DNA from: a virus
Virus record (IMG/VR): IMGVR_UViG_3300021142_000007
Span: 62,001 to 126,000 of that record
DNA length: 64,000 nt
Strand: one strand, 5' to 3'
Shown: positions 3,841-16,594 of the stretch, piece after piece
Layout: each line of letters begins with the position of its first letter
Position numbering within the stretch: the first letter of the stretch is position 1
Program-made: the position numbers and the translations under genes
The notes under the pieces: generated by a model
What the model was told of the DNA's origin: nothing
Databases searched by the model: none
Seen by the model: only the letters and a program-made list of their open reading frames with translations

Positions 3841-4098
3841 TTATATTTGGTGGGTCATAGTACTAGGGTATCCACCTGTTCCGTCACCAAGTCCGCATGA
3901 TGAGTATCTTTTTATTCTTGGTATGAATGCTCGTCCATGTCCAATTCCGCTTCCAGTGCCACATCCATCTCCAAAGCAGTAGCAAGTCTTTCTTGGTCCT
4001 CCTTGTCCAGAGCTACGTCCGAAACCTATACCTTCGTTAATATATCGTCCCATTCTTACGATACAATCCTTATTATGTCCATATGAAAATACTTGCAT
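3841..4098 (-). CDS. Gly-X repeat protein, SYG family, copy 1
   Basis: 85 residues, start MQVFSYGHNKD. It is the most degenerate repeat of the family: GFGRSSGQGG, then GDGCGTGSGIGHGR, with two Cys in PRKTCYCFGD. It is the distal gene of a seven-gene tandem array and ends at the inverted repeat at 3818-3837. Confidence 0.8.
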   Translation of the reverse strand: MQVFSYGHNKDCIVRMGRYINEGIGFGRSSGQGGPRKTCYCFGDGCGTGSGIGHGRAFIPRIKRYSSCGLGDGTGGYPSTMTHQI

Positions 4099-4105
4099 AG
4101 GCTTA

Positions 4106-4360
4106 TTATCTATGTTTTATTATGCCTTTAAAAGCACCATCTCCATGACCTCTTCCACGTCCATCGCCATTGCCATATCCATCAGCACGGCCAGAGCCAG
4201 AGCCACGACCATAACCATTGCCAGAGCCATCGCCTTTACCATTACCAATTCCCCATCCGCTTCCATTTCCATTACAAATCACATATTGATTAATCATATA
4301 ATAGCTATTATCTGAATTAAGCCCAGTATCCCTGTTCTTTCCGTATGACTTAATTTCCAT
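4106..4360 (-). CDS. Gly-X repeat protein, SYG family, copy 2
   Basis: 84 residues. Start MEIKSYGKNRD, a 20-residue polar linker, then about 45 residues in which almost every second residue is Gly (GNGSGWGIGNGKGDGSG and onward), and a basic tail ending IIKHR. Separated from copy 3 by 5 bp, with the junction GGATAAGATATATG also seen at other array boundaries. Confidence 0.85.
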   Translation of the reverse strand: MEIKSYGKNRDTGLNSDNSYYMINQYVICNGNGSGWGIGNGKGDGSGNGYGRGSGSGRADGYGNGDGRGRGHGDGAFKGIIKHR

Positions 4361-4365
4361 ATATC

Positions 4366-4632
4366 TTATCCTTTACCATTACCAAATCCATAACCACAAT
4401 AAAAACTAAACCATCCGTTTCCATTACCCCAGCCATCTCCATTTCCACATCCATTTCCTTTCCCACCTCCTTTATCGCCTCCCCATCCACCACCATTATT
4501 AAATGCAATGCCGTTTCCCATACCCTTGCCATATCCATTGCCATATCCATCAGCACGGCCTGAACCATTTGATTGGTAGTCATCGATGCTATTTAATTCG
4601 TCTGGGTTCTTTCCGTATGATAGTATTTCCAT
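4366..4632 (-). CDS. Gly-X repeat protein, SYG family, copy 3
   Basis: 88 residues from the ATG at 4630-4632, which restores the conserved MEILSYGKNPD start; a longer in-frame reading would begin inside copy 4. Contains GGGWGGDKGGGKGNG and an aromatic patch, GWFSFYCGYGFG, near the C-terminus. Confidence 0.85.
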   Translation of the reverse strand: MEILSYGKNPDELNSIDDYQSNGSGRADGYGNGYGKGMGNGIAFNNGGGWGGDKGGGKGNGCGNGDGWGNGNGWFSFYCGYGFGNGKG

Positions 4633-4637
4633 ATATC

Positions 4638-4892
4638 TTATCCTTTTCCATATTCCCAACCATAACCTGCACCATTACCATATCCATTACCCCAGCCACT
4701 GCCATCACCAAAGCCATTGCCAGAAGCATGGTTATCTTTTTGGCCTCGGCCAAATCCACTACCAGTGCCACTGCCATCGCCACTGCCCCAGCAATTGCTA
4801 TAGGTTTTACCAGAGCCAGAGCCAGAGCCAGTTCCCCATGTTCCATTACCCCACTTGGTATCTTCGTTCTTACCGTATGACCTTATTTCCAT
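4638..4892 (-). CDS. Gly-X repeat protein, SYG family, copy 4
   Basis: 84 residues, start MEIRSYGKNED. Two Gly-X blocks flank a non-repeat insert, KTYSNCW, and a second one, RGQKDNHAS. Ends GYGWEYGKG. X positions are mostly Ser, Asn, Asp, Tyr, Trp and Thr. Confidence 0.85.
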   Translation of the reverse strand: MEIRSYGKNEDTKWGNGTWGTGSGSGSGKTYSNCWGSGDGSGTGSGFGRGQKDNHASGNGFGDGSGWGNGYGNGAGYGWEYGKG

Positions 4893-4903
4893 ATCTTATT
4901 TAC

Positions 4904-5107
4904 CTATTCGTCAATATATCCATTTCCATCACCAGTACCGCCACCCCATCCATAACCGCTACCATCGCCCCATCCAGAGCCACGACCTTCACCCCAGCCA
5001 CGTCCATTACCCATGCCAAAACAGATTCCAGAGCCACTGCCCTCGCCATTGGTATTGCCATTACCATATATTATATCTTGATTTTTTCCGTATGATAGTA
5101 TTTCCAT
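4904..5107 (-). CDS. Gly-X repeat protein, SYG family, copy 5
   Basis: 67 residues, the shortest unbroken copy. Start MEILSYGKNQD. About 25 of the residues are Gly, in near-perfect alternation from residue 15 to 64. The tail is acidic (YIDE) rather than basic. Confidence 0.85.
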   Translation of the reverse strand: MEILSYGKNQDIIYGNGNTNGEGSGSGICFGMGNGRGWGEGRGSGWGDGSGYGWGGGTGDGNGYIDE

Positions 5108-5112
5108 ATTCT

Positions 5113-5400
5113 TTATTCTTTGCTTGTTCTATCACCTTTACCAGAACCACTTCCCCAGCCAATACCAGAACCATAGCCATAGCCCGTGCCAGTGCCATCA
5201 CCAAATCCATTTCCATCACCCCATACATTACCAAGGCCAATAGCATTACCATCGCCAGAGCCATCACCAAAGCCATTGCCACTACCCATTCCCCAGCACC
5301 AGCCATGGCTAGAACCAGAGCGATAGCCAGAACCATAACCAGAGCCAGAGCCTTTGCCCTCTCTTATATCTTCGTTATGTCCGTATGATGTTATTTCCAT
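5113..5400 (-). CDS. Gly-X repeat protein, SYG family, copy 6
   Basis: 95 residues, the longest copy. Start MEITSYGHNED. It has a long regular block (GYGSGYRSGS, GNGFGDGSGDGN, GTGTGYGYGSG) broken once by AIGLGNVW, and a charged tail GDRTSKE. Confidence 0.85.
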   Translation of the reverse strand: MEITSYGHNEDIREGKGSGSGYGSGYRSGSSHGWCWGMGSGNGFGDGSGDGNAIGLGNVWGDGNGFGDGTGTGYGYGSGIGWGSGSGKGDRTSKE

Positions 5401-5405
5401 ATTCT

Positions 5406-5657
5406 TTATCCATTTCCATTACCCTCGCCACCTCCATCTCCTCTGCCAAATGAAACGCAAGTTCGGCTTCTATCCTTACCAGCACCGCTACCCCATCCAC
5501 TTGCATCATCATATCCATGACCGCTACCACTGGCATTAGCGTTACCGCCACCATAGCCCTCGCCGCCACTAAAACCTATACCATCACCACTTCCGTAGCA
5601 ATAGGTTATTCCATCGTATACAGCGTCTTTATACTTTCCGTATGAGAATACTTGCAT
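5406..5657 (-). CDS. Gly-X repeat protein, SYG family, copy 7
   Basis: 83 residues, first gene of the array 3841-5657. Start MQVFSYGKYKD. The Gly repeat is less strict and has Gly-Gly pairs (GGEGYGGGN, GRGDGGGEG), with a Cys in RTCVSF. Confidence 0.85.
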   Translation of the reverse strand: MQVFSYGKYKDAVYDGITYCYGSGDGIGFSGGEGYGGGNANASGSGHGYDDASGWGSGAGKDRSRTCVSFGRGDGGGEGNGNG

Positions 5658-5660
5658 ATG

Positions 5661-5906
5661 CTAGAAGTTATCGATTAATTTCTTTATTTCTTGGATATCA
5701 TGGTTAAGCGGTTCCAGTTGTTTAAGGACCACTATTCTGCCATCTGACCATTCTTGAACAACTTGTCTTTGTTCGTTCATATAAACGATTGGTCGGCCAT
5801 TGGAGAAGGCTTCTTGTCTGATTTTTTCGGACATGTCTTTTCCAAGTTCTGAAAAGAATTCACGTATCTTTTCAGGGCTTTCATCTTCTATTTGGTCTAG
5901 GGTCAT
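5661..5906 (-). CDS. Unknown protein, 81 residues
   Basis: Charged, mainly helical protein (DESPEKIREFFSELGKDM, then a beta segment RPIVYMNEQRQVV). It overlaps the next upstream gene by 4 bp and sits 3 bp before the Gly-X array, so it is probably co-transcribed with it from 6305. Function unknown. Confidence 0.8.
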   Translation of the reverse strand: MTLDQIEDESPEKIREFFSELGKDMSEKIRQEAFSNGRPIVYMNEQRQVVQEWSDGRIVVLKQLEPLNHDIQEIKKLIDNF

Positions 5907-6286
5907 ATCTTGCTTATGTTTTTTGCAGCTTCTTTGAGTTCTTCTAGGGTGAAAAGACCAAGCATGTTAATCCTAGTGTTTAGGTCAGCTTCTGAGGTTT
6001 CCATAGCAATTTCATCATGAATATATTGCAAGATTTGCCATTGACGTGTTGTTAGTATTCCACGACTCTCTGGTTTAAGTATGATGTCAGTGTCAACATC
6101 AATAAGGTGGGTAATAGCCTTGTTGCTTAACTTATACTTATCTGGTTCTAATAGGTTCTTACCAGCCACGCACATCTTGCCATCATCTGTAAGGTATTGA
6201 CACTTAGTGCCATCGAAGCCACAGGTTGATGGGTTAGCGTAGTATGGTGCTATTTGTTCCAGTGCGAAGTCTTTCGGTGATTTCAT
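5903..6286 (-). CDS. Unknown protein with four Cys, 127 residues
   Basis: The start at 6284-6286 (MKSPKDFALEQIAP) is preferred over an upstream start that would overlap the promoter. The N-terminal half has Cys residues in STCGFDGTKCQYLTDDGKMC, perhaps a metal site; the rest is helical. First gene of the operon that leads into Gly-X copies 7 to 1. Confidence 0.8.
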   Translation of the reverse strand: MKSPKDFALEQIAPYYANPSTCGFDGTKCQYLTDDGKMCVAGKNLLEPDKYKLSNKAITHLIDVDTDIILKPESRGILTTRQWQILQYIHDEIAMETSEADLNTRINMLGLFTLEELKEAAKNISKI

Positions 6287-6304
6287 ATTATTTGATTTAG
6301 GATA

Positions 6305-6335
6305 CAAAGATATGAAATACTATTGAGAATTCCAA
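6305..6335 (-). promoter_or_regulatory. Bacteroidota-type promoter for the first Gly-X array
   Basis: -7 box TATCTTTG at 6305-6312 and TTGG at 6332-6335. The only clear promoter upstream of 5903-6286 and the seven-gene array. Confidence 0.75.
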
Positions 6336-6559
6336 GCAATTCTAATTATTTCTTCTTTTTCGGTATATGCTTGTCCATTTCCGTTACCTTCTACTAAGCC
6401 AAATCCTCTACCATAACCAGAGGAATAACCATTACCAGACCCATTTACTCTTCCATAACCCCATCCATATCCAATACCACTACCCATACCATCACCTAGA
6501 CCACGACAACTAAATGAATTAGCGATATCATCGTTCTCACCGTATGAATTAATTTCCAT
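6320..6559 (-). CDS. Gly-X repeat protein, SYG family, copy 8
   Basis: 79 residues from the ATG at 6557-6559 (MEINSYGENDD). The Gly-X block GDGMGSGIGYGWGYG is followed by a normal charged tail (TEKEEIIRIAWNSQ). Its 3' end overlaps the promoter at 6305. Confidence 0.8.
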   Translation of the reverse strand: MEINSYGENDDIANSFSCRGLGDGMGSGIGYGWGYGRVNGSGNGYSSGYGRGFGLVEGNGNGQAYTEKEEIIRIAWNSQ

Positions 6560-6560
6560 G

Positions 6561-6797
6561 CTAGTATTTATATTTACTTGCGGTACCACAACCATCACCA
6601 TCTCCAGACCCATCTCCACCACCGCACCCATACCCAGTGCCTTTACCAAGACCCCATCCATCACCAGTGCCTTGTGAAGGAGAATAACCATATAGGTTTC
6701 CTTTTCCAGAACCCTTACCAGCCGAGTATGCTATCGCCATAAACCTACCAAGGATATATAAAGAATCTGGATATCTTCCGCATGAATTAATTTCCAT
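6561..6797 (-). CDS. Gly-X repeat protein, SYG family, copy 9
   Basis: 78 residues, start MEINSCGRYPD, where Cys replaces the conserved Tyr. A hydrophobic linker (LYILGRFMAIAYSAG) precedes the repeat, GDGWGLGKGTGYGCGGGDG. One base separates it from copy 8. Confidence 0.8.
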   Translation of the reverse strand: MEINSCGRYPDSLYILGRFMAIAYSAGKGSGKGNLYGYSPSQGTGDGWGLGKGTGYGCGGGDGSGDGDGCGTASKYKY

Positions 6798-6798
6798 A

Positions 6799-7443
6799 CT
6801 AATAGTTATTTAAAAATTCTTGAGCACTAGGTGTGTTATTTGGACCCTTAAGAATGCATTGTCCTTCATATATCAGCAATAGCTTAAGAACTTCTTCTCT
6901 TGTGAATGTGTCTTTACCTTTCTTAATAGTGATAGTGTTATCTTTAAGGTTTACTTTAAGGACTTCTTTTTCTTCTTCAATTTCCCTCATATTATCTTTA
7001 TGATAATTAGCACCTCTTTCTCCCCATTTATTTATTCCGATATAACAAATTGTATATTCAACCATCACCTCTGTAATAGGAGTATTTTTGTTATACATCT
7101 CTACATACTTAAGAATAAAGTCTTCAGAGGGAGAAGGAAGTCCAAGAGATGTGTCGGTAGAGGCTATGATTTTTTTTGTAGCACTACTATAGCTATTTGC
7201 CCAATCTAAAACATCTTTAGTATACATTCTCTTTAGAGTTTTACCGTCTCCTAATACTACATAGTCTCCTTCTTTTATTTCATCATCTGAAAGGATATAT
7301 AGATGTTGATTTACATAGGTGTAATTACCAATTGTTTGCTTCTTAAATTGATTTTTATAAATCAAATCTTTATTTTTATAAAGGTAGATGCGGCTTTCAT
7401 TTTCAGTAGAAAGCATGATTACTTTATGTGTTTTAAATTTCAT
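6799..7443 (-). CDS. Conserved Bacteroidota-phage protein, unknown
   Basis: 214 residues. The stretch IKEGDYVVLGDGKTLKRM followed by KKIIASTDTSLGLPSPSEDF and then a VMVEY motif is a pattern I associate with recurring hypothetical proteins of Bacteroidota phages; that link is from memory and unverified. No catalytic motif is visible. It begins an operon with Gly-X copies 9 and 8, from the promoter at 7462. Confidence 0.8.
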   Translation of the reverse strand: MKFKTHKVIMLSTENESRIYLYKNKDLIYKNQFKKQTIGNYTYVNQHLYILSDDEIKEGDYVVLGDGKTLKRMYTKDVLDWANSYSSATKKIIASTDTSLGLPSPSEDFILKYVEMYNKNTPITEVMVEYTICYIGINKWGERGANYHKDNMREIEEEKEVLKVNLKDNTITIKKGKDTFTREEVLKLLLIYEGQCILKGPNNTPSAQEFLNNY

Positions 7444-7461
7444 ATCTTGATATTTAGGTCA

Positions 7462-7493
7462 CGAAGGTAATAAAAAGTATTGATATAACCAAA
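7462..7493 (-). promoter_or_regulatory. Bacteroidota-type promoter
   Basis: -7 box TACCTTCG at 7462-7469 (TTCG instead of TTTG) and TTTGG at 7489-7493. Upstream of 6799-7443. Confidence 0.65.
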
Positions 7494-7503
7494 CTTATTG
7501 GTA

Positions 7504-7728
7504 TTATTTTCCTTTACAACTTCCTTTACCTATTCCCCAACAAATACCTCTGCCTTTTCCAAGACCTGCTCCATCTCCTGTTCCAGCACCTCTGCCATAT
7601 CCATTGCCATTTGCTGCGGCATTTCCAATCCCATAACCATATCCATAACCACCCATATTGGCATATCCAGAACCAGAACCACGGCCCCAAACTATATCTT
7701 TATTCTTTCCATATGAATTAATTTCCAT
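7504..7728 (-). CDS. Gly-X repeat protein, SYG family, copy 10
   Basis: 74 residues from the ATG at 7726-7728 (MEINSYGKNKD). Tyr-rich repeat (GGYGYGYGIGNAAANGNGYG) and a basic, Cys-containing tail (ICWGIGKGSCKGK). Last gene of the five-gene array 7504-8716. Confidence 0.85.
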   Translation of the reverse strand: MEINSYGKNKDIVWGRGSGSGYANMGGYGYGYGIGNAAANGNGYGRGAGTGDGAGLGKGRGICWGIGKGSCKGK

Positions 7729-7732
7729 ATTT

Positions 7733-7978
7733 CTATCCATTTTCGTTTTCATAACCACTACCATCACCAACACCAGAGCTGTTACCATTTCCATCTCCAA
7801 ATCCGTCACCAGATAGTATTAGCGTTGAAATACCATCACCACTTCCCCATCCATATCCAGCAGAACGACCATCCCCATATCCAATACCTCTTCCATCGCC
7901 AATGCCATGACCATCTGAGCGTTTAAGTACCCAACTTGAATCGGTATCTTCGTTCTTTCCGTATGAGAATACTTCCAT
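7733..7978 (-). CDS. Gly-X repeat protein, SYG family, copy 11
   Basis: 81 residues, start MEVFSYGKNED. The repeat is interrupted by a hydrophobic insert, GISTLILSG, in the middle. Acidic tail ENENG. Confidence 0.85.
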   Translation of the reverse strand: MEVFSYGKNEDTDSSWVLKRSDGHGIGDGRGIGYGDGRSAGYGWGSGDGISTLILSGDGFGDGNGNSSGVGDGSGYENENG

Positions 7979-7983
7979 ATATC

Positions 7984-8223
7984 TTAACCCTCTCCTTTTC
8001 CATCACCGCTACCATCAGAAACTCCATAGCATAATCCCCAGCCACTACCAGTTCCTCTACCACTTCCGTTTCCGTGTGACCAATTTGTTAATTTACCATT
8101 AAAGCTTCCAGCACCAGAAACACCATTGGCATCATATGCACAACCATTGCCATCGCCATCACCACTTGCCTTTCCGCAACCCCATTTGGTATCTTTATTC
8201 TTTCCGTATGATAGTATTTCCAT
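7984..8223 (-). CDS. Gly-X repeat protein, SYG family, copy 12
   Basis: 79 residues, start MEILSYGKNKD. Only short Gly-X runs (GDGDGNGC, GNGSGRGTGSGWG), separated by a non-repeat segment (SFNGKLTNWSH). Ends GDGKGEG. Confidence 0.85.
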   Translation of the reverse strand: MEILSYGKNKDTKWGCGKASGDGDGNGCAYDANGVSGAGSFNGKLTNWSHGNGSGRGTGSGWGLCYGVSDGSGDGKGEG

Positions 8224-8226
8224 ATA

Positions 8227-8457
8227 TTATTTACCTGTTCCGTCACCAAATCCATTACCGTTTCCATATCCGCTAGACATGCAAAAACTCTCATATACGA
8301 TATATCCATAACCCATGCTTGTTCCATCACCACGACCATTGCCACAAGCGTCACTATAATCAAGACGTATTCCATGCATAGTTCGATATACCCCTCTGAA
8401 GTATTGTGGGTCGCTTCTATGTATATCTGGATTCCTACCGTATGAATTTATTTGCAT
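8227..8457 (-). CDS. Gly-X repeat protein, SYG family, copy 13
   Basis: 76 residues from the ATG at 8455-8457 (MQINSYGRNPD). More than half is non-repetitive (SDPQYFRGVYRTMHGIRLDY), with a short Gly-X tail. It shows that the SYG start, not the Gly repeat, defines the family. Confidence 0.8.
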   Translation of the reverse strand: MQINSYGRNPDIHRSDPQYFRGVYRTMHGIRLDYSDACGNGRGDGTSMGYGYIVYESFCMSSGYGNGNGFGDGTGK

Positions 8458-8458
8458 A

Positions 8459-8716
8459 TTAGTACTCCCACATAGATACATAACCAAATCCAGTACCATT
8501 TCTAGTTCCACCGCCACTTCCAAATCCATCTCCGTTTCCACTTCCACCGCTACTTCCACAACCATTACCAGTACCCCATCCATCACCGCCACCGCAGCTA
8601 TTACCGTAACCATTACCAGAGCCATAAGAATAACCATCAGAGCCACCATAGCCACCATAGCCAGTGCCAAAACCAAACTTGGTATCTTGATTCATACCAT
8701 ACGAAAATATAGTCAT
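8459..8716 (-). CDS. Gly-X repeat protein, SYG family, copy 14
   Basis: 85 residues, start MTIFSYGMNQD. Dense repeat with Gly-Tyr and Gly-Ser (GTGYGGYGGSDGYSYGSG) and two isolated Cys. First gene of its array; 1 bp before copy 13. Confidence 0.85.
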   Translation of the reverse strand: MTIFSYGMNQDTKFGFGTGYGGYGGSDGYSYGSGNGYGNSCGGGDGWGTGNGCGSSGGSGNGDGFGSGGGTRNGTGFGYVSMWEY

Positions 8717-8719
8717 ATA

Positions 8720-8863
8720 TTAGTCTTTGCTGGTTTTAAAATCGATATAGAATATTATAAGACATGTTGCACATGCTATTTCTAGTCCTATATCGTTATT
8801 AGTTGCTGTTATACCAGTACCAACTGCTAGTATAATCATAGGTATAATAAGTAGTTTTTTCAT
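8720..8863 (-). CDS. Small membrane protein, 47 residues
   Basis: Start at 8861-8863 (MKKLLIIPMIILAVGTGI), with a second hydrophobic segment (IACATCLIIFYI) and a basic end. Probably two membrane passes, or a signal anchor. It lies between promoter 8885 and the five-gene Gly-X array and so would be co-expressed with it. Confidence 0.7.
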   Translation of the reverse strand: MKKLLIIPMIILAVGTGITATNNDIGLEIACATCLIIFYIDFKTSKD

Positions 8864-8884: not shown

Positions 8885-8916
8885 CAAAGGTAACAATAAT
8901 TTTTTTAAGAAACAAA
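8885..8916 (-). promoter_or_regulatory. Bacteroidota-type promoter for the second Gly-X array
   Basis: -7 box TACCTTTG at 8885-8892 and TTTGT at 8913-8917. Lies at the 3' end of Gly-X copy 15 and upstream of 8720-8863. Confidence 0.7.
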
Positions 8917-9165
8917 TATATTAAGATTATCTTCTCCTTCACCACAGCCATTTCCTTTACCACTGCCATTACCCCAACCATTTCCAGAACCATTGCCATA
9001 GCCATAGCCCGTGCCACTACCCCAGCCATCACCCCATCCATAGCCATTTCCTTTACCACTGCCATTGCCATAACCATTTCCTTGTCCTGTAGTGCTTCCT
9101 CTACCATCTGCGGTTCCAAACCCAAAGAATAAGTCTAGGTTCTTTCCATATGATTTTACTTCCAT
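8905..9165 (-). CDS. Gly-X repeat protein, SYG family, copy 15
   Basis: 86 residues, start MEVKSYGKNLD. One of the most regular repeats (GNGYGNGSGKGNGYGWGDG, continuing), ending in a normal tail EGEDNLNIFVS. Confidence 0.85.
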   Translation of the reverse strand: MEVKSYGKNLDLFFGFGTADGRGSTTGQGNGYGNGSGKGNGYGWGDGWGSGTGYGYGNGSGNGWGNGSGKGNGCGEGEDNLNIFVS

Positions 9166-9182: not shown

Positions 9183-9439
9183 CTATTCAAAATAATTACC
9201 TGCTCCATCACCACTGCCTTCGCCCCATCCATTGCCAGTGCCAGAACCTCTACCATCGCCCTTGTTCCAGCGATTACCATGACCACCACCATCAGCTGGT
9301 CCATAACTCATACCATATCCAAATAAAAAGCCTCGAATTGGTTCATTTTGACCGCAGCCAAAACAAACCAATCCAAAGCTATGATTTTTTTATCAAGGGT
9401 ATCTCTACCTGTAGTTATTCCGTTAGATAGAACATTCAT
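9183..9439 (-). CDS. Gly-X repeat protein, copy 16, with frameshift
   Basis: The Gly-X frame (9183-9371) has no ATG. An ATG at 9437-9439 opens a second frame beginning MNVLSNGITTGRDTLDKK, which resembles the family start (compare MIVLTNGIDARTLD in copy 21). The two frames meet at a run of seven A (plus-strand T at 9385-9391); a -1 slip there joins them into one protein of about 85 residues. Either a broken copy or a programmed frameshift. Confidence 0.65.
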
Positions 9440-10165
9440 TTAGGACTGAGCAATAAGCTTTGCGAAGTATTGTTCAGCTGTAAGAGGCACGATTTCACCT
9501 GAAGGTATGATTTCAGAGTCCATTTCAAACAAGAGAACATCGCCTTGTCTCTTGATGTACTTGATATGTGGTATCATGTTCTCGTATACACGAATGGTTG
9601 AAGCAATAGCTTCCAGCGCACCATTATGAGCATACTTTTCTTCAATCCACAACCAGTGTTCTTTGTTGGTTGTTGTACACCAGCACTTCACGCAGTAGTT
9701 ATCCTCGATACCCAGCGTAGAGCAGTCTATCTTATGGAGTTCATAGATGACATCGTAGTTTCTTAGCTTATACGAGCCATCTTCGTTGTATACACGATGT
9801 GTTACGTTTTTACCTTCAACGTTAATCCTAGTATTACCCAAGTTCTGAATCATTTCAGATACGTTTATGGAACCAAACACGATTGCTCTGAAGGTAGAAT
9901 TTGAAATTTCAAATGCTTCCTTGTATGAGAAAGGCTTTGCTTGATTGAAGTAATACAATAGAAGGTCTGCTTGATTCAAGCGGTCATTTGCTTCTAGTTG
10001 TATAAGAGACTCTTTGAGAGGTCTTATGAAGGAATCCATGAAGCGTTCTTTATTACGCATAAGGCCCTTGAGGTATCTCGCGAAGTCAGGCAAGCTAACA
10101 TCATCGATGTATGAGTCTTTTTCGATATCGTATTCGATATTTGGAAGAAGAGGAATTTTTTGCAT
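9440..10165 (-). CDS. Unknown phage protein, 241 residues
   Basis: Begins MQKIPLLPNIEYDIEKD. The C-terminal half holds four Cys/His-type positions (DCSTLGIEDNYCVKCWCTTTNKEHWLW), perhaps zinc binding, followed by a helical and a beta segment. No family is recognised. Its stop codon directly abuts the start of Gly-X copy 16. Confidence 0.8.
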   Translation of the reverse strand: MQKIPLLPNIEYDIEKDSYIDDVSLPDFARYLKGLMRNKERFMDSFIRPLKESLIQLEANDRLNQADLLLYYFNQAKPFSYKEAFEISNSTFRAIVFGSINVSEMIQNLGNTRINVEGKNVTHRVYNEDGSYKLRNYDVIYELHKIDCSTLGIEDNYCVKCWCTTTNKEHWLWIEEKYAHNGALEAIASTIRVYENMIPHIKYIKRQGDVLLFEMDSEIIPSGEIVPLTAEQYFAKLIAQS

Positions 10166-10190: not shown

Positions 10191-10222
10191 AAATGGTCAT
10201 GACGAATGTGTCATGACCATTG
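10191..10222 (-). terminator. Stem-loop terminator
   Basis: Perfect 12-bp stem AATGGTCATGAC/GTCATGACCATT followed on the minus strand by a short T-run. Ends the transcript of 10234-10554. Confidence 0.65.
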
Positions 10223-10233: not shown

Positions 10234-10554
10234 TTAGAGAGTCCACACAGGAATCATGTCCAGATTTTTTTTGCCGTTTTCAGAAACGGTGATTACTTCG
10301 ATTGCCATCAGCTTGATGCTTGACACTTCAAGCGTGAATTTGCATTCGGTTGGTTTCGCAGAACCATTTTCAGACAAGTCTGAAAGCGTATTGGCACCAG
10401 CCCAAGACCAGAGTCTCCTTGTTTGTACGAGTTCAACAGCGTAGTGACCGTCATGAGCAGGTTCACATGACTTAAGGAAACCAAAGTGAACACCTGCTGA
10501 GTAGGTTCTGATACATACGTAAGGGTAGCCATCTGCGTTAACGTTTTTCTTCAT
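10234..10554 (-). CDS. Unknown protein, 106 residues
   Basis: Predicted beta-rich protein (YPYVCIRTYSAGVHFGF, CKFTLEVSSIKLMAIEV). Monocistronic between promoter 10590 and the terminator at 10191. No motif recognised. Confidence 0.8.
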   Translation of the reverse strand: MKKNVNADGYPYVCIRTYSAGVHFGFLKSCEPAHDGHYAVELVQTRRLWSWAGANTLSDLSENGSAKPTECKFTLEVSSIKLMAIEVITVSENGKKNLDMIPVWTL

Positions 10555-10589: not shown

Positions 10590-10621
10590 CAAAGGTATAA
10601 AATTTATTTTAAAGATGCAAG
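10590..10621 (-). promoter_or_regulatory. Bacteroidota-type promoter
   Basis: -7 box TACCTTTG at 10590-10597 and TTGC-type -33 box at 10618-10621. Upstream of 10234-10554. Confidence 0.8.
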
Positions 10622-10662: not shown

Positions 10663-10905
10663 CTAGTCTGAAATGGAGTACCCTTTAAGTCTACCACAAC
10701 TGATATTAGAAAAGATACCACCTTGGCCAGAACCAGAGCCATGTCCAAAACCACAGCCCACACCATCACCTTTACCATTACCAATTCCGCTACAGCTTGA
10801 ACTACCAACTCCGCTACCAAATCCGCTTCCACGACCACTTCCATCACCTTTTTTATAAGGCGAAATAATACTATCTGGATTTCTACCGTATGACTTTATT
10901 TCCAT
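10663..10905 (-). CDS. Gly-X repeat protein, SYG family, copy 17
   Basis: 80 residues, start MEIKSYGRNPD. The repeat contains a Ser-Cys cluster (GSSSCSG) and is followed by a non-repeat C-terminus (IFSNISCGRLKGYSISD). Third gene of a three-gene array. Confidence 0.85.
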   Translation of the reverse strand: MEIKSYGRNPDSIISPYKKGDGSGRGSGFGSGVGSSSCSGIGNGKGDGVGCGFGHGSGSGQGGIFSNISCGRLKGYSISD

Positions 10906-10910: not shown

Positions 10911-11153
10911 TTATCCTTTACCATTTCCATAACCATCTCCACGACCAAAAGACCTTACCCTAGACTCAGCGAGAATACAATAACCCATATCAGTACCAGT
11001 GCCATCACCATAACCCTTACCATATCCAGTGCCATCACCCTTACCATATCCAGTGCCATAACCCTTTCCATTTCCTTTGGTACCGCCCCATCCATCAGCA
11101 TGGCCCCAGCCACAGAATATATCTTGGTTTCTACCGTATGACTTTATTTCCAT
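10911..11153 (-). CDS. Gly-X repeat protein, SYG family, copy 18
   Basis: 80 residues, start MEIKSYGRNQD. Contains an internal near-duplication, GTGYGKGDGTGYGKGYGDG, direct evidence of repeat expansion, then a non-repeat insert (ILAESRVRSFGR). Confidence 0.85.
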   Translation of the reverse strand: MEIKSYGRNQDIFCGWGHADGWGGTKGNGKGYGTGYGKGDGTGYGKGYGDGTGTDMGYCILAESRVRSFGRGDGYGNGKG

Positions 11154-11158: not shown

Positions 11159-11416
11159 TTATCCTTTACCATTTCCCTTTCCACCGCCATCACCACGACC
11201 TTCTGCTCGGCATCTTCCATTAGCACCACCAAATCCATCTCCCCATCCAAGTCCCTGTCCAGTTCCCCAATTATAACCATCATCATAGCCATCACCGCTG
11301 CCATCACCCATACCACCTCCATCTCCATCTCCGTTACCATTACCACATCCATCAGCATCGCCATGAGACCAACCCCATTCTTGTTTAACTATTCTTCCGT
11401 GTGATAATACTTCCAT
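11159..11416 (-). CDS. Gly-X repeat protein, SYG family, copy 19
   Basis: 85 residues with a drifted start, MEVLSHGRIVKQ (His for Tyr). Very Asp-rich repeat (GNGNGDGDGGGMGDGSGDGY). Basic end GGGKGNGKG. First gene of its array. Confidence 0.85.
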   Translation of the reverse strand: MEVLSHGRIVKQEWGWSHGDADGCGNGNGDGDGGGMGDGSGDGYDDGYNWGTGQGLGWGDGFGGANGRCRAEGRGDGGGKGNGKG

Positions 11417-11486: not shown

Positions 11487-11723
11487 TTAGTCAAAAGCGT
11501 TTACCATTTGACCAGTCAAAGGGTTCACCTCTTGCTGTGTCAACTTGATTACGTGTGCGCTTTCGGTTACTACTACACCGTGTTCACCGTGGAGTACTAC
11601 GCCTTGGCCTTCGCATTCAAGGACAAGTCCGTTAAGGTTGTCAAGCTTACGCTTAAGGGTAACTTCACCATTGATGGTGTGTGTGTTGGTCGATGGTTCT
11701 AGGACCAGTGTGTTTTTGCTCAT
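11487..11723 (-). CDS. Unknown protein, 78 residues
   Basis: Start MSKNTLVLEPSTNTHT at 11721-11723, chosen because the promoter at 11755 lies just upstream. Beta-rich, hydrophilic, with a Gln/Gly/His segment (LECEGQGVVLHGEHGVVV). Function unknown. Confidence 0.8.
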   Translation of the reverse strand: MSKNTLVLEPSTNTHTINGEVTLKRKLDNLNGLVLECEGQGVVLHGEHGVVVTESAHVIKLTQQEVNPLTGQMVNAFD

Positions 11724-11726
11724 AGC

Positions 11727-11790
11727 TTTTTGTTTTTGGTTTTTATTAATAATACAAAGGTACGTATAATATTTGAGAAATTCAAGCTTT
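11727..11790. repeat. 64-bp direct repeat, copy A
   Basis: Identical over 64 bp to 12135-12198, 408 bp away. The repeat spans an entire promoter (-7 and -33 boxes) and the T-rich leader. Confidence 0.9.
11755..11786 (-). promoter_or_regulatory. Bacteroidota-type promoter in repeat copy A
   Basis: -7 box TACCTTTG at 11755-11762 and TTGA-type -33 box near 11783-11786. Drives 11487-11723. Confidence 0.8.
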
Positions 11791-11806
11791 ATTCGAAATT
11801 TATTTT

Positions 11807-11905
11807 TTATATATTGTATATCAATCGAATAAGCATTGCCCCACATGCCATACCTATTATAAATATGCATATCAAGGATAAAAGGAAGCTTGTGTTTTCG
11901 TTCAT
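11807..11905 (-). CDS. Small membrane peptide, 32 residues
   Basis: Start at 11903-11905 (MNENTSFLLSLICIFIIG), one membrane segment with a Gly/Ala/Cys stretch. It overlaps nothing else and lies between the two 64-bp repeats. A short ORF; the call rests on context only. Confidence 0.45.
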   Translation of the reverse strand: MNENTSFLLSLICIFIIGMACGAMLIRLIYNI

Positions 11906-11917
11906 GGGTTAAACGAT

Positions 11918-12130
11918 TTATGAAAATCTACTTAAGAAGTTAAGAAACGTTAAGGCTATTAACAGAATGTTTATTATTGGTAGCAAAGAAATACCAAATG
12001 CTAGCATCCCTAGATAAAGGTTCTTCCAGTTTCTAGGATTGCGTATGGCATTACCCAATAGCAATTTATCAATGTAATAGCTTCTATAGAGCCAGTATAG
12101 TCCACATAGGACACCAATCGTGTATATCAT
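11918..12130 (-). CDS. Small membrane protein, 70 residues
   Basis: Start MIYTIGVLCGLYWLYRSYY at 12128-12130, behind promoter copy B. Two hydrophobic segments (residues 2-14 and about 42-66). Function unknown. Confidence 0.75.
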   Translation of the reverse strand: MIYTIGVLCGLYWLYRSYYIDKLLLGNAIRNPRNWKNLYLGMLAFGISLLPIINILLIALTFLNFLSRFS

Positions 12131-12134
12131 AGTA

Positions 12135-12198
12135 TTTTTGTTTTTGGTTTTTATTAATAATACAAAGGTACGTATAATATTTGAGAAATTCAAGCTTT
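12135..12198. repeat. 64-bp direct repeat, copy B
   Basis: Identical to 11727-11790. Indicates a recent duplication of a promoter-leader cassette. Confidence 0.9.
12163..12194 (-). promoter_or_regulatory. Bacteroidota-type promoter in repeat copy B
   Basis: Same sequence as the promoter at 11755. Drives 11918-12130. Confidence 0.8.
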
Positions 12199-12818
12199 TA
12201 GGAAATTTTTTTGTATATTTTTTCGATATCTTTGAGATGTACTATTCCTTCTTCTATAGGTAAGTAACTTATACCATATAAAGACATCAACTTATATAGC
12301 TGCTTTATATGTTCTTTTGGATATGACTTACAACCGAACTTGACGTTAGATTCAGATACTTCCATGCGATGACCAAGTATCTGAACGCCATTATGTTTAT
12401 CTATTTCTTGCTGTGTTGCTTTTCTGAAGTAATTCGGATACTGGTCAATATATAAAACATGACCTTCATCTGAAATGGCAACCTTAAAATTACTCTTAGT
12501 GTTTCCATTAGGGGCACCAATAAGGTCAACTCTAATAACGTCACCAACATGAGCCGCAGCTTTATACATGGGATGGTTTGTGTTATTACCGCCATCTCCA
12601 AGGACGTATATGTAGTCACCAACCTTATATTCGTCTTCATATACCGCATCAAACCATATATCAAGAACCTTAGCGTCTTGCGCCTTGTCTATGCTTACGA
12701 TATCGTTTGATACTAAGAAACATCCGTTATCATATATGTAAGAATCTATACCAAAGAACTTCCCAGCATCCGCTGCGCTTACGGTTCCATTAAGCTTATA
12801 TCCGATTATTTTTTTCAT
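12198..12818 (-). CDS. Unknown phage protein, 206 residues
   Basis: Contains YKVGDYIYVLGDGGNN, a motif shared in outline with IKEGDYVVLGDGK in 6799-7443, suggesting a common small beta domain. The rest is alpha-beta with no catalytic motif. Promoter at 12838. Confidence 0.8.
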   Translation of the reverse strand: MKKIIGYKLNGTVSAADAGKFFGIDSYIYDNGCFLVSNDIVSIDKAQDAKVLDIWFDAVYEDEYKVGDYIYVLGDGGNNTNHPMYKAAAHVGDVIRVDLIGAPNGNTKSNFKVAISDEGHVLYIDQYPNYFRKATQQEIDKHNGVQILGHRMEVSESNVKFGCKSYPKEHIKQLYKLMSLYGISYLPIEEGIVHLKDIEKIYKKIS

Positions 12819-12837
12819 TGTTTTTTGTTTTATGCTA

Positions 12838-12869
12838 CAAAGGTACTAATAATTTTTGTAATTTCCAAA
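12838..12869 (-). promoter_or_regulatory. Bacteroidota-type promoter
   Basis: -7 box TACCTTTG at 12838-12845, TTTGG at 12865-12869. Upstream of 12198-12818. Confidence 0.8.
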
Positions 12870-12877
12870 TAAGTAGT

Positions 12878-13186
12878 TTACATATCCAAATTACGTCTGG
12901 AGATATCGATGCTGTCGCTTACGCTATACTTATACTTCGTTACGTTAATGATAAAACCCTTGATTGAATCACCAGCCTTATACTGATTATATGTTTTTTG
13001 ACATACTTCATACTCATGAGCCTCTGAACCATCATAGACTTGTAAGTAATACGTATCGTATTTACCACCAAACATTTCTTTTTTAAGAACAACAACGGTT
13101 GTATCGGTTAGTGTTCTGTATGTTTTGTAATCGTTGCAGCTTGACAACAAAAGCAGAGAGAATAAGATAAGGGTTATTTTTTTCAT
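12878..13186 (-). CDS. Lipoprotein, 102 residues
   Basis: Start MKKITLILFSLLLLSSCND at 13184-13186: a typical lipoprotein signal with the lipobox Cys at residue 17. The mature part is polar and beta-rich and contains one further Cys. It follows 13189-14118 by 2 bp. Function unknown; a surface lipoprotein could act in superinfection exclusion. Confidence 0.8.
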   Translation of the reverse strand: MKKITLILFSLLLLSSCNDYKTYRTLTDTTVVVLKKEMFGGKYDTYYLQVYDGSEAHEYEVCQKTYNQYKAGDSIKGFIINVTKYKYSVSDSIDISRRNLDM

Positions 13187-13188
13187 AT

Positions 13189-14118
13189 TTATTTTTTTCT
13201 TGTTGGTATTAAACAAAGGTTGTCAGTAGAATCTTTCTTTATTTCCCAATCAAATTTATCATTTAGATAGAACGCTTTGTTTACATATTCAGACCCACTT
13301 CTAATAGCAATCATTGAATCAACTTTATACCCATCTTTTTTAAACAATTCTAACTCATCAACCCTACCCTTGCTCAAATCAATTTCTTTGGTTTTCAAGA
13401 ACGGAAATTCTTTTTCCATTCTTTGTTTCCAAAGACCACAGCAATTATTTTCGTAGTATTGTTTTATGAAGTCTTCGGTTGTTTCACCCGTGAAGCCATC
13501 AACATTTTCTCTTACGAGTTTTTGTTGTTCTGCATTCATGGCTTTAAACCCTTCCTGAAGGAATGATAGATTGATACTTATCTTTTTCATTTGTTTTGGT
13601 GTTTCTTGTTTTAAAACGTGTTTGATAAATTGTTCTGTTGTTATTTTTTCATACCCAGAAAAGTCTTCATCATCTAAAAATTCTCTTTCTTCATCACCAT
13701 AATAGTAGCTACCATCTGGGTGATATGATAGTATTAACTCATTTTCATGTACCGTAATACCAGCAAGAAAGGTAGCCACGCTATTTTTCCATTCATTGAG
13801 CATTTGTTTGTTCTCTGGTGTAACAACACAATACCATTTTTCTGGAAGTTCAACGCCATTTACAATTTCATCCCACTCTTCAAGGGTTAGTTCTACGGTA
13901 CCTTCAGGAAACTCCCCAAGTTCAACACGCCAACCCGTATTTCCACAATCACAAGTTCTTAATAATCCCACTCCGTAGTAAGCATCAAGACACCCAGACC
14001 AAGGAGAATCAGCATATCCATTTTTCTTGCAGTAGTCATTAAGCCAAGATATGTATTTATCCCATAAAGGGTTATTTGAATCTCTTTTAATTGCAAAGAG
14101 ATTAGGTAGTTGTTTCAT
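13189..14118 (-). CDS. Unknown phage protein, 309 residues
   Basis: Has repeated ELT/ITTEQF-type segments (GTVELTLEEWDEIV, KITTEQFIKHVL) of the sort found in phage proteins built from small duplicated domains. An internal MKKISINLSFLQEGFKAM resembles an independent start, so two domains may be fused. No enzyme motif. Confidence 0.75.
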   Translation of the reverse strand: MKQLPNLFAIKRDSNNPLWDKYISWLNDYCKKNGYADSPWSGCLDAYYGVGLLRTCDCGNTGWRVELGEFPEGTVELTLEEWDEIVNGVELPEKWYCVVTPENKQMLNEWKNSVATFLAGITVHENELILSYHPDGSYYYGDEEREFLDDEDFSGYEKITTEQFIKHVLKQETPKQMKKISINLSFLQEGFKAMNAEQQKLVRENVDGFTGETTEDFIKQYYENNCCGLWKQRMEKEFPFLKTKEIDLSKGRVDELELFKKDGYKVDSMIAIRSGSEYVNKAFYLNDKFDWEIKKDSTDNLCLIPTRKK

Positions 14119-14137
14119 TGTTTTTTTGTTTATGATA

Positions 14138-14169
14138 CAAAGGTAATAATACTTTTTGTAATTACCAAA
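14138..14169 (-). promoter_or_regulatory. Bacteroidota-type promoter
   Basis: -7 box TACCTTTG at 14138-14145, TTTGG at 14165-14169. Upstream of 13189-14118. Confidence 0.8.
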
Positions 14170-14430
14170 TTATTCTTCAATAATACTTAAAATACCACCA
14201 AAATGGTCGGTGTCTTTAGCTTGTCTTTTACCATCCTTAACTAAGTAATCTTTTGCTAGGTCAATTGCACAGCAAGCCGTATTATAACTTTTTTTCTTGT
14301 ATTCTTCGTTGAATGAATTAAGCCATTTTTCATCACATGATGTTAGGATGTCGTAGGCTTCATCAACAGATTCTGGTATGAGAAGCTTAACCAGCTTTTT
14401 TCTGAGGTATGTTTTTTCTCTTTGTGTCAT
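14170..14430 (-). CDS. Unknown helical protein, 86 residues
   Basis: Lys-rich, helical (TYLRKKLVKLLIPESVDEAY, EEYKKKSYNTACCAIDLA). Overlaps the start of 14430-14630 by one base, so translation is probably coupled. Function unknown. Confidence 0.8.
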   Translation of the reverse strand: MTQREKTYLRKKLVKLLIPESVDEAYDILTSCDEKWLNSFNEEYKKKSYNTACCAIDLAKDYLVKDGKRQAKDTDHFGGILSIIEE

Positions 14431-14630
14431 TAGTTCATATGCATTAGGGTTTCAGCAACACCTACCTTAAAGGTTTTAACACCTTCTTTTCTATCTAAGC
14501 TGGGGATGTATGCAGATACGATATAACCTTCTAGGTAGGGTTCACACTTAAGAATAATGGTTTCATCTACGTTCCACTTTTCTTTTTCGTGAATGATTTG
14601 TTTTATCGCATTTTCAAAATTTCTTGTCAT
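14430..14630 (-). CDS. Small unknown protein, 66 residues
   Basis: Charged alpha-beta protein (IKQIIHEKEKWNVDETIILK). Part of the operon 15003-14170. Function unknown. Confidence 0.75.
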   Translation of the reverse strand: MTRNFENAIKQIIHEKEKWNVDETIILKCEPYLEGYIVSAYIPSLDRKEGVKTFKVGVAETLMHMN

Positions 14631-14749
14631 TAGTCCAGTATATCTGTTATGTCATCAAAAACATCTTCTAATGCTTCGCTGAAGTCTATGCGAAATAATA
14701 CTAGTATCGTTACTAGGATTATAGCTATGAGTATACAAGTATAAATCAT
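14630..14749 (-). CDS. Small membrane protein, 39 residues
   Basis: ATG at 14747-14749 overlaps the TGA of the upstream gene (ATGA), and its own stop overlaps the next start by one base. A hydrophobic N-terminus (MIYTCILIAIILVTILVLF) is followed by an acidic tail. The overlaps at both ends argue that it is real. Confidence 0.65.
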   Translation of the reverse strand: MIYTCILIAIILVTILVLFRIDFSEALEDVFDDITDILD

Positions 14750-15003
14750 AGGTTATTTATTATTTTTGATAGCATTAGTTCTCTAATCTTTATCTTAGAA
14801 GATATACCTTCAGCAGTCTCGGTATAACCATATTCTTTGGCTTCTGCCAATTCGATATATAGGTCATCCAATTCATCCTTCAGGCTTTCAGCCAAATCAT
14901 AATCGTTTATGGGTTCGGTATTTGATTCATCCTTAGAAAGGATACTAATAGCTATTAAGAACCCCAAAAAACCGCATCCAAGCATGTATAGTATTTCCAT
15001 CAT
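14746..15003 (-). CDS. Membrane-anchored coiled-coil protein, 85 residues
   Basis: N-terminal membrane segment (LYMLGCGFLGFLIAISIL) followed by an acidic helix with heptad-like spacing (LAESLKDELDDLYIELAEAK). First gene of an operon of four. Function unknown. Confidence 0.8.
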   Translation of the reverse strand: MMEILYMLGCGFLGFLIAISILSKDESNTEPINDYDLAESLKDELDDLYIELAEAKEYGYTETAEGISSKIKIRELMLSKIINNL

Positions 15004-15037
15004 ATAGTTTCTGATATTTTTTTTTTGAATTATAATG

Positions 15038-15069
15038 CAAAGGTATGTAATCTTTTTCAGACTTACAAG
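15038..15069 (-). promoter_or_regulatory. Bacteroidota-type promoter
   Basis: -7 box TACCTTTG at 15038-15045, TTGT-type -33 box at 15066-15069. Upstream of 14746-15003. Confidence 0.8.
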
Positions 15070-15072
15070 CTT

Positions 15073-15339
15073 TTATAAATAAAAATTTTTCCAATTACCA
15101 CTACCATCGCCACTACCATCGCCACCACCATTACCACTTCCTTCTCCATGTCCCCAGCCATGTCCAGAGCCATAACCTTCGCCAGAGCCATGACCCCATC
15201 CATTTCCGTTTCCAATGCTATTTCCATCTCCCAACCCACTTCCATCTCCACCTCCCCATCCACCAGCATCGCCAGAGCCATCAGCCCAAAAATGAACATG
15301 GGTTGTATCTAAGTTCTTTCCGTATGAATTAATTTCCAT
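15073..15339 (-). CDS. Gly-X repeat protein, SYG family, copy 20
   Basis: 88 residues, an isolated copy far from the arrays. Start MEINSYGKNLD. His- and Trp-rich repeat (GNGWGHGSGEGYGSGHGWGHG). It shares a base with the stop of the transglycosylase gene and is probably co-transcribed with it. Confidence 0.85.
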   Translation of the reverse strand: MEINSYGKNLDTTHVHFWADGSGDAGGWGGGDGSGLGDGNSIGNGNGWGHGSGEGYGSGHGWGHGEGSGNGGGDGSGDGSGNWKNFYL

Positions 15340-15935
15340 TAGTATTTGGCCCAGTATCTAAGTACATAATTTCTTGTTTCTTCTGGCAAGTCAGAATAGT
15401 TCGCTCCTCTGCTATACCAAGCTTGAAAGTTTCCCCAACCCCAGTTATAGATGATTAGCTTATAGTTAAGGCTATTTGCAATACCAGCTTGCTTGAGGTA
15501 CAATGGAATTTGTTCTCCTAGCAACCATTCACCTATCTTGACATTGTATTTTCTTATGAATAAGTCTTCATAGGAATAGCGTTCTTTTGGATGATTGATG
15601 TTCCATTCATCCAAGCCAGCTTGTGTAACTTGCATAGAACCAACAGCGTTCATAACCGATGTCTTGTAGTCCTTATCGCCAGACTCAATCATACGAACTT
15701 GGTCATAGTCTAGGTCCGTAAGGAATTTGCTTGCGCTATCGCGTGTTACAACAAATGGCTTTAAGACCTTCGGAATGGATGTATACTTCAGACTAAATCC
15801 TGTACTGAAGCCAATCATGACGAACATGATGAAAGCGAAGGTTATTGGCTTCATCATTATTTTCCAATAAGGGACGTGTACTTCTCTAAGAAGTTCGTCT
15901 CTGTAGTATAGCGTTTTTGTTTTTAGTAATTTCAT
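15339..15935 (-). CDS. Lytic transglycosylase (SLT type), membrane-anchored
   Basis: 198 residues. An N-terminal membrane segment (about residues 29-48) is followed by an SLT fold: the presumed catalytic Glu in RMIESGDKDYKTSV, then AVGSMQVTQAGLDEWN and the closing YNWGWGNFQAWYSRG. SLT enzymes cleave the peptidoglycan sugar chain. With its anchor it would act outside the inner membrane, either in lysis or in local wall opening. The link to Gly-X copy 20 hints that some Gly-X proteins act at the envelope, which is only an inference. Confidence 0.85.
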   Translation of the reverse strand: MKLLKTKTLYYRDELLREVHVPYWKIMMKPITFAFIMFVMIGFSTGFSLKYTSIPKVLKPFVVTRDSASKFLTDLDYDQVRMIESGDKDYKTSVMNAVGSMQVTQAGLDEWNINHPKERYSYEDLFIRKYNVKIGEWLLGEQIPLYLKQAGIANSLNYKLIIYNWGWGNFQAWYSRGANYSDLPEETRNYVLRYWAKY

Positions 15936-15939
15936 GATA

Positions 15940-15971
15940 CAAAGGTAAAATTAATAAATGAAAACTGCAAG
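15940..15971 (-). promoter_or_regulatory. Bacteroidota-type promoter
   Basis: -7 box TACCTTTG at 15940-15947, TTGC-type -33 box near 15968-15971. Upstream of the transglycosylase gene. Confidence 0.8.
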
Positions 15972-15980
15972 TATATCTAC

Positions 15981-16358
15981 TTATTTTTTTTCTGGATTAT
16001 CTTTAAGTTCTTCTTCGACCCGTTCTTTGTTCTTGAAACAGTGACCAATGCCCATCTTTCCCCAATTATCAATAAAATGCTTATGTATTTCGGATTGAAC
16101 AAAAGCCTTATCTCTTGGCTTCTGCCAGTTAGGGTCCGTAACGAAGACTTCCGCTCTTGATAATTGGAAGTTTGATTCGGTCAATAGCTTTTGAAGCATA
16201 TGGTATCTTATGCTCAACAACTTAGTGAATTTGTCCCAAGCCGAATCCGTTTCAGCAAGTACGAATAACAAACCATTTTCAAAAGAAGATAAGCTTGCTT
16301 CTTTATTTCGAACCGCATCAACCATTCTAGCTATTTCATCAAAGTCTTTTTGTTTCAT
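15981..16358 (-). CDS. Unknown helical protein, 125 residues
   Basis: Mostly helical, charged (MKQKDFDEIARMVDAVRNKE, SIRYHMLQKLLTESNFQLSR). Overlaps Gly-X copy 21 by 4 bp. Function unknown. Confidence 0.8.
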   Translation of the reverse strand: MKQKDFDEIARMVDAVRNKEASLSSFENGLLFVLAETDSAWDKFTKLLSIRYHMLQKLLTESNFQLSRAEVFVTDPNWQKPRDKAFVQSEIHKHFIDNWGKMGIGHCFKNKERVEEELKDNPEKK

Positions 16359-16594
16359 GTGTGTTTTAGTTTTTTATTTGTGTATCCAAAGTCTTTTATA
16401 AAGTGACCCTTACCACGACCAAACCCATCTCCCTTGCCATCACCAGTTCCATTTGAACACTTATGATTAATACTCAAACGATAGCCTCTTCCATCACCAT
16501 TACCAGCACCATTTCCTTTTCCAGAAACAGTTCCTCGTCCAACGCCACGCCCATCTAGGGTTCTCGCATCAATTCCGTTTGTGAGTACTATCAT
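16355..16594 (-). CDS. Gly-X repeat protein, divergent copy 21
   Basis: 79 residues, start MIVLTNGIDARTLDGRG, a second N-terminal type shared only with copy 16. Two Gly-X blocks (GKGNGAGNGDGRG, GTGDGKGDGFGRGKG) separated by a Ser/His/Cys linker, and a Lys-rich tail. Confidence 0.8.
   Translation of the reverse strand: MIVLTNGIDARTLDGRGVGRGTVSGKGNGAGNGDGRGYRLSINHKCSNGTGDGKGDGFGRGKGHFIKDFGYTNKKLKHT

Follow-up and report, generated by a model that had tools for sequence, protein, structure and literature searches.

The window analysed here, 64,000 bases long, covered bases 62001-126000 of the 135,399-base IMG/VR virus record IMGVR_UViG_3300021142_000007. The record was recognized as a T4-like phage by matches to the major head protein, portal, terminase and thymidylate synthase and by a terminase search, whose relatives included Flavobacterium phages (29% identity). 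Promoter-like sites of the Bacteroidetes type, TTTG-N17-21-TANNTTTG, were found 25 times in the window against 3.2 expected. Twenty-one intact reading frames lie at 3841-16594 on the minus strand, each with a start and a stop and none with an internal stop. They encode short proteins, here termed GX, in which an N-terminal start (the cap) is followed by a tail of Gly alternating with variable residues (X). This family of 21 members had been described in the original prediction, made from the sequence alone, and every frame was present and intact. No further GX frames were found elsewhere in the record, its remaining approximately 71 kb outside the window included. The arrays are interrupted by ordinary genes, and one of these, inside the array at 10234-10554, encodes a DUF6948 protein, which the original prediction had missed. 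Together, DUF6948 and GX look like an undescribed phage diversity system, whose function is approached below by inference.

The copies are numbered here from the 5' end, whereas the original prediction counted from the low coordinates; its copies 16 and 21 are those at 9183-9371 and 16355-16594. A clean S-Y(C)-G start was found in 18 of the 21. These are copy 2 at 15073-15339 (MEINSYGKNLD, 88 amino acids, aa), copy 4 at 10911-11153 (MEIKSYGRNQD, 80 aa), copy 5 at 10663-10905 (MEIKSYGRNPD, 80 aa), copy 7 at 8905-9165 (MEVKSYGKNLD, 86 aa), copy 8 at 8459-8716 (MTIFSYGMNQD, 85 aa), copy 9 at 8227-8457 (MQINSYGRNPD, 76 aa), copy 10 at 7984-8223 (MEILSYGKNKD, 79 aa), copy 11 at 7733-7978 (MEVFSYGKNED, 81 aa), copy 12 at 7504-7728 (MEINSYGKNKD, 74 aa), copy 13 at 6561-6797 (MEINSCGRYPD, 78 aa), copy 14 at 6320-6559 (MEINSYGENDD, 79 aa), copy 15 at 5406-5657 (MQVFSYGKYKD, 83 aa), copy 16 at 5113-5400 (MEITSYGHNED, 95 aa), copy 17 at 4904-5107 (MEILSYGKNQD, 67 aa), copy 18 at 4638-4892 (MEIRSYGKNED, 84 aa), copy 19 at 4366-4632 (MEILSYGKNPD, 88 aa), copy 20 at 4106-4360 (MEIKSYGKNRD, 84 aa), and copy 21 at 3841-4098 (MQVFSYGHNKD, 85 aa). 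The second start type that had been predicted was found in copy 1, the 5'-most (16355-16594, drifted cap MIVLTNGIDAR, 79 aa), and in copy 6 (9183-9371, TTG start, VCFGCGQNEP, 62 aa), but in copy 3 (11159-11416, MEVLSHGRIVK, 85 aa) the shared start has drifted. A degenerate DNA pattern for the SYG start gave 14 matches in the window and none in 100 shuffles. Upstream of copies 8-12, a TTTG-N-TACCTTTG promoter-like motif was located on the minus strand at 8885-8916.

The caps are under selection as protein. Over the 18 aligned caps, the ratio of nonsynonymous to synonymous substitution rates (dN/dS) was 0.07 at codons 5-9 and 11, with a dS of 1.3, and 1.05 at the free codons 4 and 10. Because the ratio is so low at the fixed codons and about 1 at the two free ones, the GX frames are real proteins with a start under strong purifying selection, as had been proposed. 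Near-identical junctions were also confirmed, with exact repeats of 49 nucleotides (nt) between copies 4 and 5 (11176 versus 10928) and of 30 nt (8227 versus 4636). As a 26-nt block is moreover common to two tails, the copies in the window arose by duplication.

The Gly content of the window GX proteins was 21-39%. Strict alternation occurs in stretches only, the longest being 26 consecutive pairs in copy 7. The Gly codons were GGT 220, GGA 186, GGC 120, and GGG 14 (37% GGR); Gly was retained in the tails while its wobble base drifted. Compared with the phage proteome, the X residues were enriched in Trp (5.3-fold), Ser (2.4-fold), Cys (2.3-fold) and Tyr, Asp and Asn (2.1- to 2.2-fold). Val, Leu, Glu, Gln, Ala and Ile were three- to six-fold lower, and Pro was absent (0/386). 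The antibody-like alphabet noted in the original prediction was thereby borne out. Outside the window, X was Ser in 29%, Tyr in 28.5%, Asp in 26.5%, Asn in 6%, and Phe in 3%; in a set collected by way of DUF6948 the values were 33, 30, 26, 4 and 2%, respectively. Tyr/Ala/Asp/Ser and Tyr/Ser codes suffice for synthetic antibodies, and Trp alone can replace Tyr (PMC3498902). The X alphabet outside the window is close to this minimal paratope code, to which the window copies add Trp.

The DUF6948 gene (PF22253, 10234-10554, minus strand, 106 aa, Pfam E 4.3e-18) was the only DUF6948 match in the record. Ahead of it, at 10590-10597 on the same strand, lies TACCTTTG, a Bacteroidetes-type -7 element by sequence, of the motif class over-represented in the window. 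On its 3' side a perfect hairpin of 11-12 bp followed by TTTT (10192-10221, minus strand) is a likely terminator, and a 61-nt stretch here folds at -20.2 kcal/mol. The gene after this terminator (9440-10165, minus strand) encodes a 241-aa protein with no assigned function and separates DUF6948 from the next GX copy; the loci elsewhere that hold relatives of this protein contained no GX. GX copies are placed on both sides of DUF6948, and none of their starts overlaps it. No close relative of the window DUF6948, within reach of a pattern search, was found, and no mention of DUF6948 was found in the literature searched.

GX tails were then recognized in many other phages. With a Gly-X DNA pattern, at least 120 stretches in IMG/VR were matched, whereas the SYG start pattern had no other occurrence there. 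The claim that nothing similar had been described thus fails for the tail, which appears widespread, and stands for the SYG cap, which by these searches is private to the window phage. The GX sample was gathered largely by pattern and is no census. In tblastn the GX proteins gave no match, presumably since the low-complexity filter masked the tails, and DNA patterns were used instead. Pfam TrAA12 and PHROG 11232 and 18306 were considered as families of the tail and rejected, as the matches were weak, mostly below cut-off and driven by composition. NCBIfam profiles and defence-system profiles gave no match.

Among the matches listed, other phages carry single GX genes and small arrays, with a cap common within one phage and different between phages, and the 21 copies of the window are the largest array. 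MNIKISRG was found five times in G048, a 119-kb genome whose terminase is 60% identical to that of the window phage, LRSSMGLKAFLKFG five times in L137, MDELIRDS four times in L177, and MTEYFYPVG three times in G053. Another array, at 5555-7450 of L222, encodes four proteins with tails rich in G-Y-G-F and much longer, different N-termini, without DUF6948; this Gly-X array perhaps arose independently. In 47 T4-like relatives by terminase (74-100% identity, many of them fragments), no GX arrays were found, and single Gly-rich matches occurred in two. Because these close relatives have no arrays, the lineage of the window phage probably acquired or expanded its array recently.

DUF6948 and GX are found together in most loci. 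Starting from GX in IMG/VR, 51 of 71 informative loci among the matches listed had DUF6948 within 300 bp upstream. It was elsewhere in the locus in 8, the window included, and missing in 12 despite at least 500 bp of upstream sequence; several of these 12 are unrelated Gly-rich proteins. The DUF6948 profile for this count was built partly from the same loci, and Pfam's own model confirms the two tested. Starting from DUF6948 in GTDB species genomes, 40 loci were obtained. A GX frame lay within 3 kb in 29 of them. Of the 11 without one, 6 break off no more than 40 bases past the DUF6948 stop, which gives 29 of 34 loci with an intact flank. In INPHARED, DUF6948 occurred in 16 records; an adjacent GX frame was seen in all 15 inspected, and the sixteenth duplicates Iodobacter phage PhiPLPE. 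The neighbours of these modules other than GX were RecT, SSB, helicases, clamp, replication initiators, methyltransferases and regulators, none of them universal.

In the usual geometry, the GX start overlaps the DUF6948 end by 12-13 nt, with ATGG on a Trp codon near the DUF6948 C-terminus. Since this overlap makes many caps begin with 'ME', as they commonly do in the overlapping pairs and also in the window, the window copies may have descended from such a pair. The pairs of Pectobacterium phage Koroua, PhiPLPE and Chlorobiaceae phage CV-1-33 resemble the window in combining DUF6948 with small proteins of a cap and a Gly-X tail. The window differs in its 21-copy array, its private SYG cap and its richer X alphabet, and in a monocistronic DUF6948 with its own promoter and terminator, without the 12-13 nt overlap. 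Some GX genes were missed or mis-framed by gene callers: the GX of PhiPLPE (L317, 1164-1409) is unannotated, and that of CV-1-33, gene25 (L316), is annotated in another frame as MAMAMALAMA... Three DUF6948 places were also seen in Neisseria gonorrhoeae NZ_CP119142 (L395), with a 95-aa GX frame directly downstream of the one that was read. This record is filed as a 2.17-Mb plasmid and, judging by its size, is evidently a chromosome.

The tract of GX is hypervariable between near-identical phages. Eight Pectobacterium and Dickeya phages share one cap, MSKLIKPE(K/R)YG, but their GX proteins, 53-89 residues long, come in seven versions. The Pectobacterium phages Ymer and Amona are identical across 1 kb upstream, DUF6948 and 800 bp downstream, while their GX proteins have 73 and 67 aa and a different order of X. 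Similarity in the order of X was clear for this pair alone (z 3.9); most Pectobacterium phage pairs were shuffle-like, with the composition kept. Five-letter X words were repeated 325 times against 114 in shuffles, and each singleton GX mostly uses one Gly codon. Given these two features, the singleton tracts appear to turn over by duplication and loss of hexamers. The gain, loss and shuffling expected in the original prediction were supported, and hypervariability was seen directly in related modules. Like the variable sites of diversity-generating retroelements, with which the original prediction had compared them, the X positions are rich in Tyr, Ser, Asp, Asn and Trp. This kinship was rejected, for no reverse transcriptase (PF00078) was found in the record of the window, G048 or Koroua, and the variation arises by hexamer duplication.

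The structure of DUF6948 was predicted by AlphaFold (AF2) with a mean confidence (pLDDT) of 95.5. In a Foldseek search with this model, the top 50 PDB matches were all Sm/LSm-type chains (probability 0.85-1.0), including an archaeal SmAP with poly-U. In the model, strands 3 and 4 are separated by an additional helix. Judged by this model, DUF6948 likely resembles the Sm/LSm fold in shape, and a barrel of this kind suggests that it may bind nucleic acid. LSm4, with its low-complexity tail, takes part in P-body assembly (PMC9266425). The combination of a predicted Sm-like barrel with a low-complexity chain is alike in the phage module, as an analogy only, but here the two are separate phage genes and no sequence homology to Sm, LSm or Hfq was found.

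It is reasonable, if tentative and somewhat short of an even chance, to consider the array as the variable half of a two-gene phage module (DUF6948-GX, widespread and so far undescribed) grown to 21 copies, in which GX proteins are disordered, multivalent binding chains that act with DUF6948. The chain would have a Gly backbone with Tyr and Trp as stickers and Ser, Asp, Asn and Gly as spacers. Such disorder is favoured because of this composition and because AlphaFold sees no fold in GX; for copy 7, pLDDT was 33 and the predicted TM-score (pTM) 0.12, weak evidence in view of a shallow and repetitive alignment. GX would act early, inside the infected cell and jointly with DUF6948; the barrel of the latter, probably assembled into a ring, may bind single-stranded DNA or RNA. 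Docking of the chain, on DUF6948 or on a different common partner, would be the part of the fixed cap. Through its variable tail, the chain may touch, or condense together with, a host or rival-phage target that changes fast. Singletons would vary through duplication and loss of GGN-NNY hexamers, whereas the window phage would store its repertoire as paralogues made by tandem duplication, which then drift while selection holds Gly at alternate positions.

Several C-terminal extensions are consistent with a binding module. Some GX genes run on into a conserved domain of about 150 aa, AHGxTLxEA...WHxxLTGSCxxGRxxF...EFIxLT (L128, L140-L142, L157, L159, L172, L195, L236-L245, and L396). In L243 this domain comes after leucine-rich repeats, and a Riemerella phage gene with the annotation 'ribonuclease inhibitor' has it too. 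In the proteins scanned, the domain matched no family of Pfam or PHROG. Because one C-terminal domain follows either, GX and a leucine-rich repeat can stand at one and the same position, which suits a binding module.

A gene pair conserved in phages whose hosts span many phyla, with one of the two genes rewritten between genomes that are otherwise identical, bears the mark of a function in recognition or in an arms race. In a stronger form of the proposal, which we consider unlikely, DUF6948-GX would be a phage recognition system. Its disordered, slippage-diversified Tyr/Ser/Asp chain would give each phage its own 'word', or here a library of 21, and would decide which rival phage or host factor an Sm-like ribonucleoprotein binds. 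If GX chains work, phages can build binding diversity from disordered repeats alone.

Several results weigh against the action proposed for the two-gene module. The Foldseek E-values to Sm proteins were 0.035-0.27, none below 0.001, and hhalign gave no sequence homology of DUF6948, at the level of the Sm1-Sm2 motifs, to LSm (E 0.47) or Hfq (E 0.26), against 6e-5 for the LSm-Hfq control. For GX, the AF2 models yield neither a fold nor a binding mode. The multi-copy large phages G048 and G053 hold GX arrays without detectable DUF6948, so GX may work without it. In the window, Ser at X was encoded by TCA in 1 of 61 cases against about a quarter in other genes, where TCA is the commonest Ser codon. 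A nucleotide-level bias is left at X beyond what pure protein selection explains.

As the first of the alternatives, GX could be a bulk material, i.e., a gel, condensate or silk-like aggregate, in which the order of X is immaterial and varies neutrally as the repeats slip. In eukaryotes, low-complexity chains rich in SYG/GSY form condensates, and the shuffle-like order of X under a kept composition in most Pectobacterium phage pairs is what this idea expects. However, it gives no reason for a phage to keep 21 diverged copies with a selected cap. Completely identical flanks around a wholly changed tract also imply unusually fast change, which selection for novelty explains better. A material of this kind is possible, with a minor share of our confidence.

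In an RNA-level alternative, the transcript of GX would do the work in place of the peptide; this (GGY-NNY)n RNA would be a guide or scaffold read by a partner, with DUF6948 as the Sm-like RNA binder. Its precedent is VIPR, a minimal phage locus with 9-16 tandem YNNGG pentamers, whose hypervariable NN is decoded with a one-base skip (PMC13142463). The VIPR RNAs (vrRNAs) are noncontiguous guides in phage-phage conflict, and their partner Vipr is a RAMP homologue with an RRM core, a G-loop and a thumb (PMC13142463). GX, as a hexamer cousin, would share with it the minimal phage locus, the tandem repeats of GG plus variable letters, the hypervariable positions, which differ between otherwise identical phages, and several units per array. 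In the DUF6948-linked tracts 90% of Gly codons were GGY (865/957), and X codons were nearly all pyrimidine-ended (Ser TCC/TCT 284, AGC 20, TCA 1). Even in the window the X wobble is pyrimidine-biased (67 of 80 versus 55%), and the predicted fold of DUF6948 is of an RNA-binding type.

Several differences from VIPR speak against it. The GX repeat has a period of 6, not 5, and is always in frame; the frames are intact, and conservation of the leader is at the level of protein rather than RNA. The predicted partner is Sm-like and not of the RRM/RAMP type. Since X is Ser, Tyr or Asp in 89% of the DUF6948-linked tracts, NN would be almost only TC, TA or GA, which is poor for arbitrary targets. GGY was kept in all 137 vrRNAs that the VIPR authors inspected (PMC13142463), but it is not kept in the window, where GGR makes up more than a third of Gly codons. 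No GGYNN pentamer array (seven GGY at 5-nt spacing) was found in the record of the window, G048, G053 or 7 module phages. When NN was decoded with 0-4 skipped bases, matches in 0.76 Mb of DNA from related phages, a small database for few guides, did not outnumber those of shuffles, and two 20-base skip-1 targets had no match in IMG/VR. The folding of GX RNA was not consistently lower than that of synonymous shuffles (mean z -0.6). After these tests the RNA guide is disfavoured and seems improbable.

An ordered structure, either a one-faced extended strand or a polyglycine-II bundle, serving as a virion adhesin or binding surface, was the idea of the original prediction. The stretches of strict alternation and the paratope-like alphabet suit it, as does the leucine-rich-repeat solenoid standing in the place of GX in L243. 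The lack of a fold in the AF2 models, with the weakness already stated, speaks against the ordered strand. Descriptions of polyglycine-II concern poly-Gly or GXX runs rather than a strict Gly-X alternation. The adhesin role was likewise not supported, as the neighbours in related loci are replication and recombination genes, not tail genes. T-even gp38-type adhesins, poly-Gly-rich tail proteins, are similar as Gly-rich low-complexity phage segments, but GX proteins are small and lie away from tail genes; Gly-rich genes of a gp38 look were seen in the T4-like relative G038. A search for a tail-fibre or gp38 adhesin turned up only unrelated Gly-rich genes in one relative (L087), and this candidate was rejected. 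An ordered adhesin is accordingly a doubtful reading with little in its favour. Finally, slippage does make repeat arrays grow, but functionless repeat DNA in decay is extremely improbable in view of the absence of stops in 21 copies, the selected cap and the coupling to DUF6948 in loci from many phyla.

Other features were recognized in the window. A 64-nt exact repeat with a TACCTTTGTATT promoter-like element was found at 11727-11790 and 12135-12198, ahead of two unrelated genes. A nicotinamide phosphoribosyltransferase gene of NAD salvage (PHROG 448, E 1e-146) was predicted at 49069-50673. Four tRNA genes, i.e., three tRNA-Lys (CTT, TTT and TTT) and one tRNA-Thr, were located at 62047-63735.

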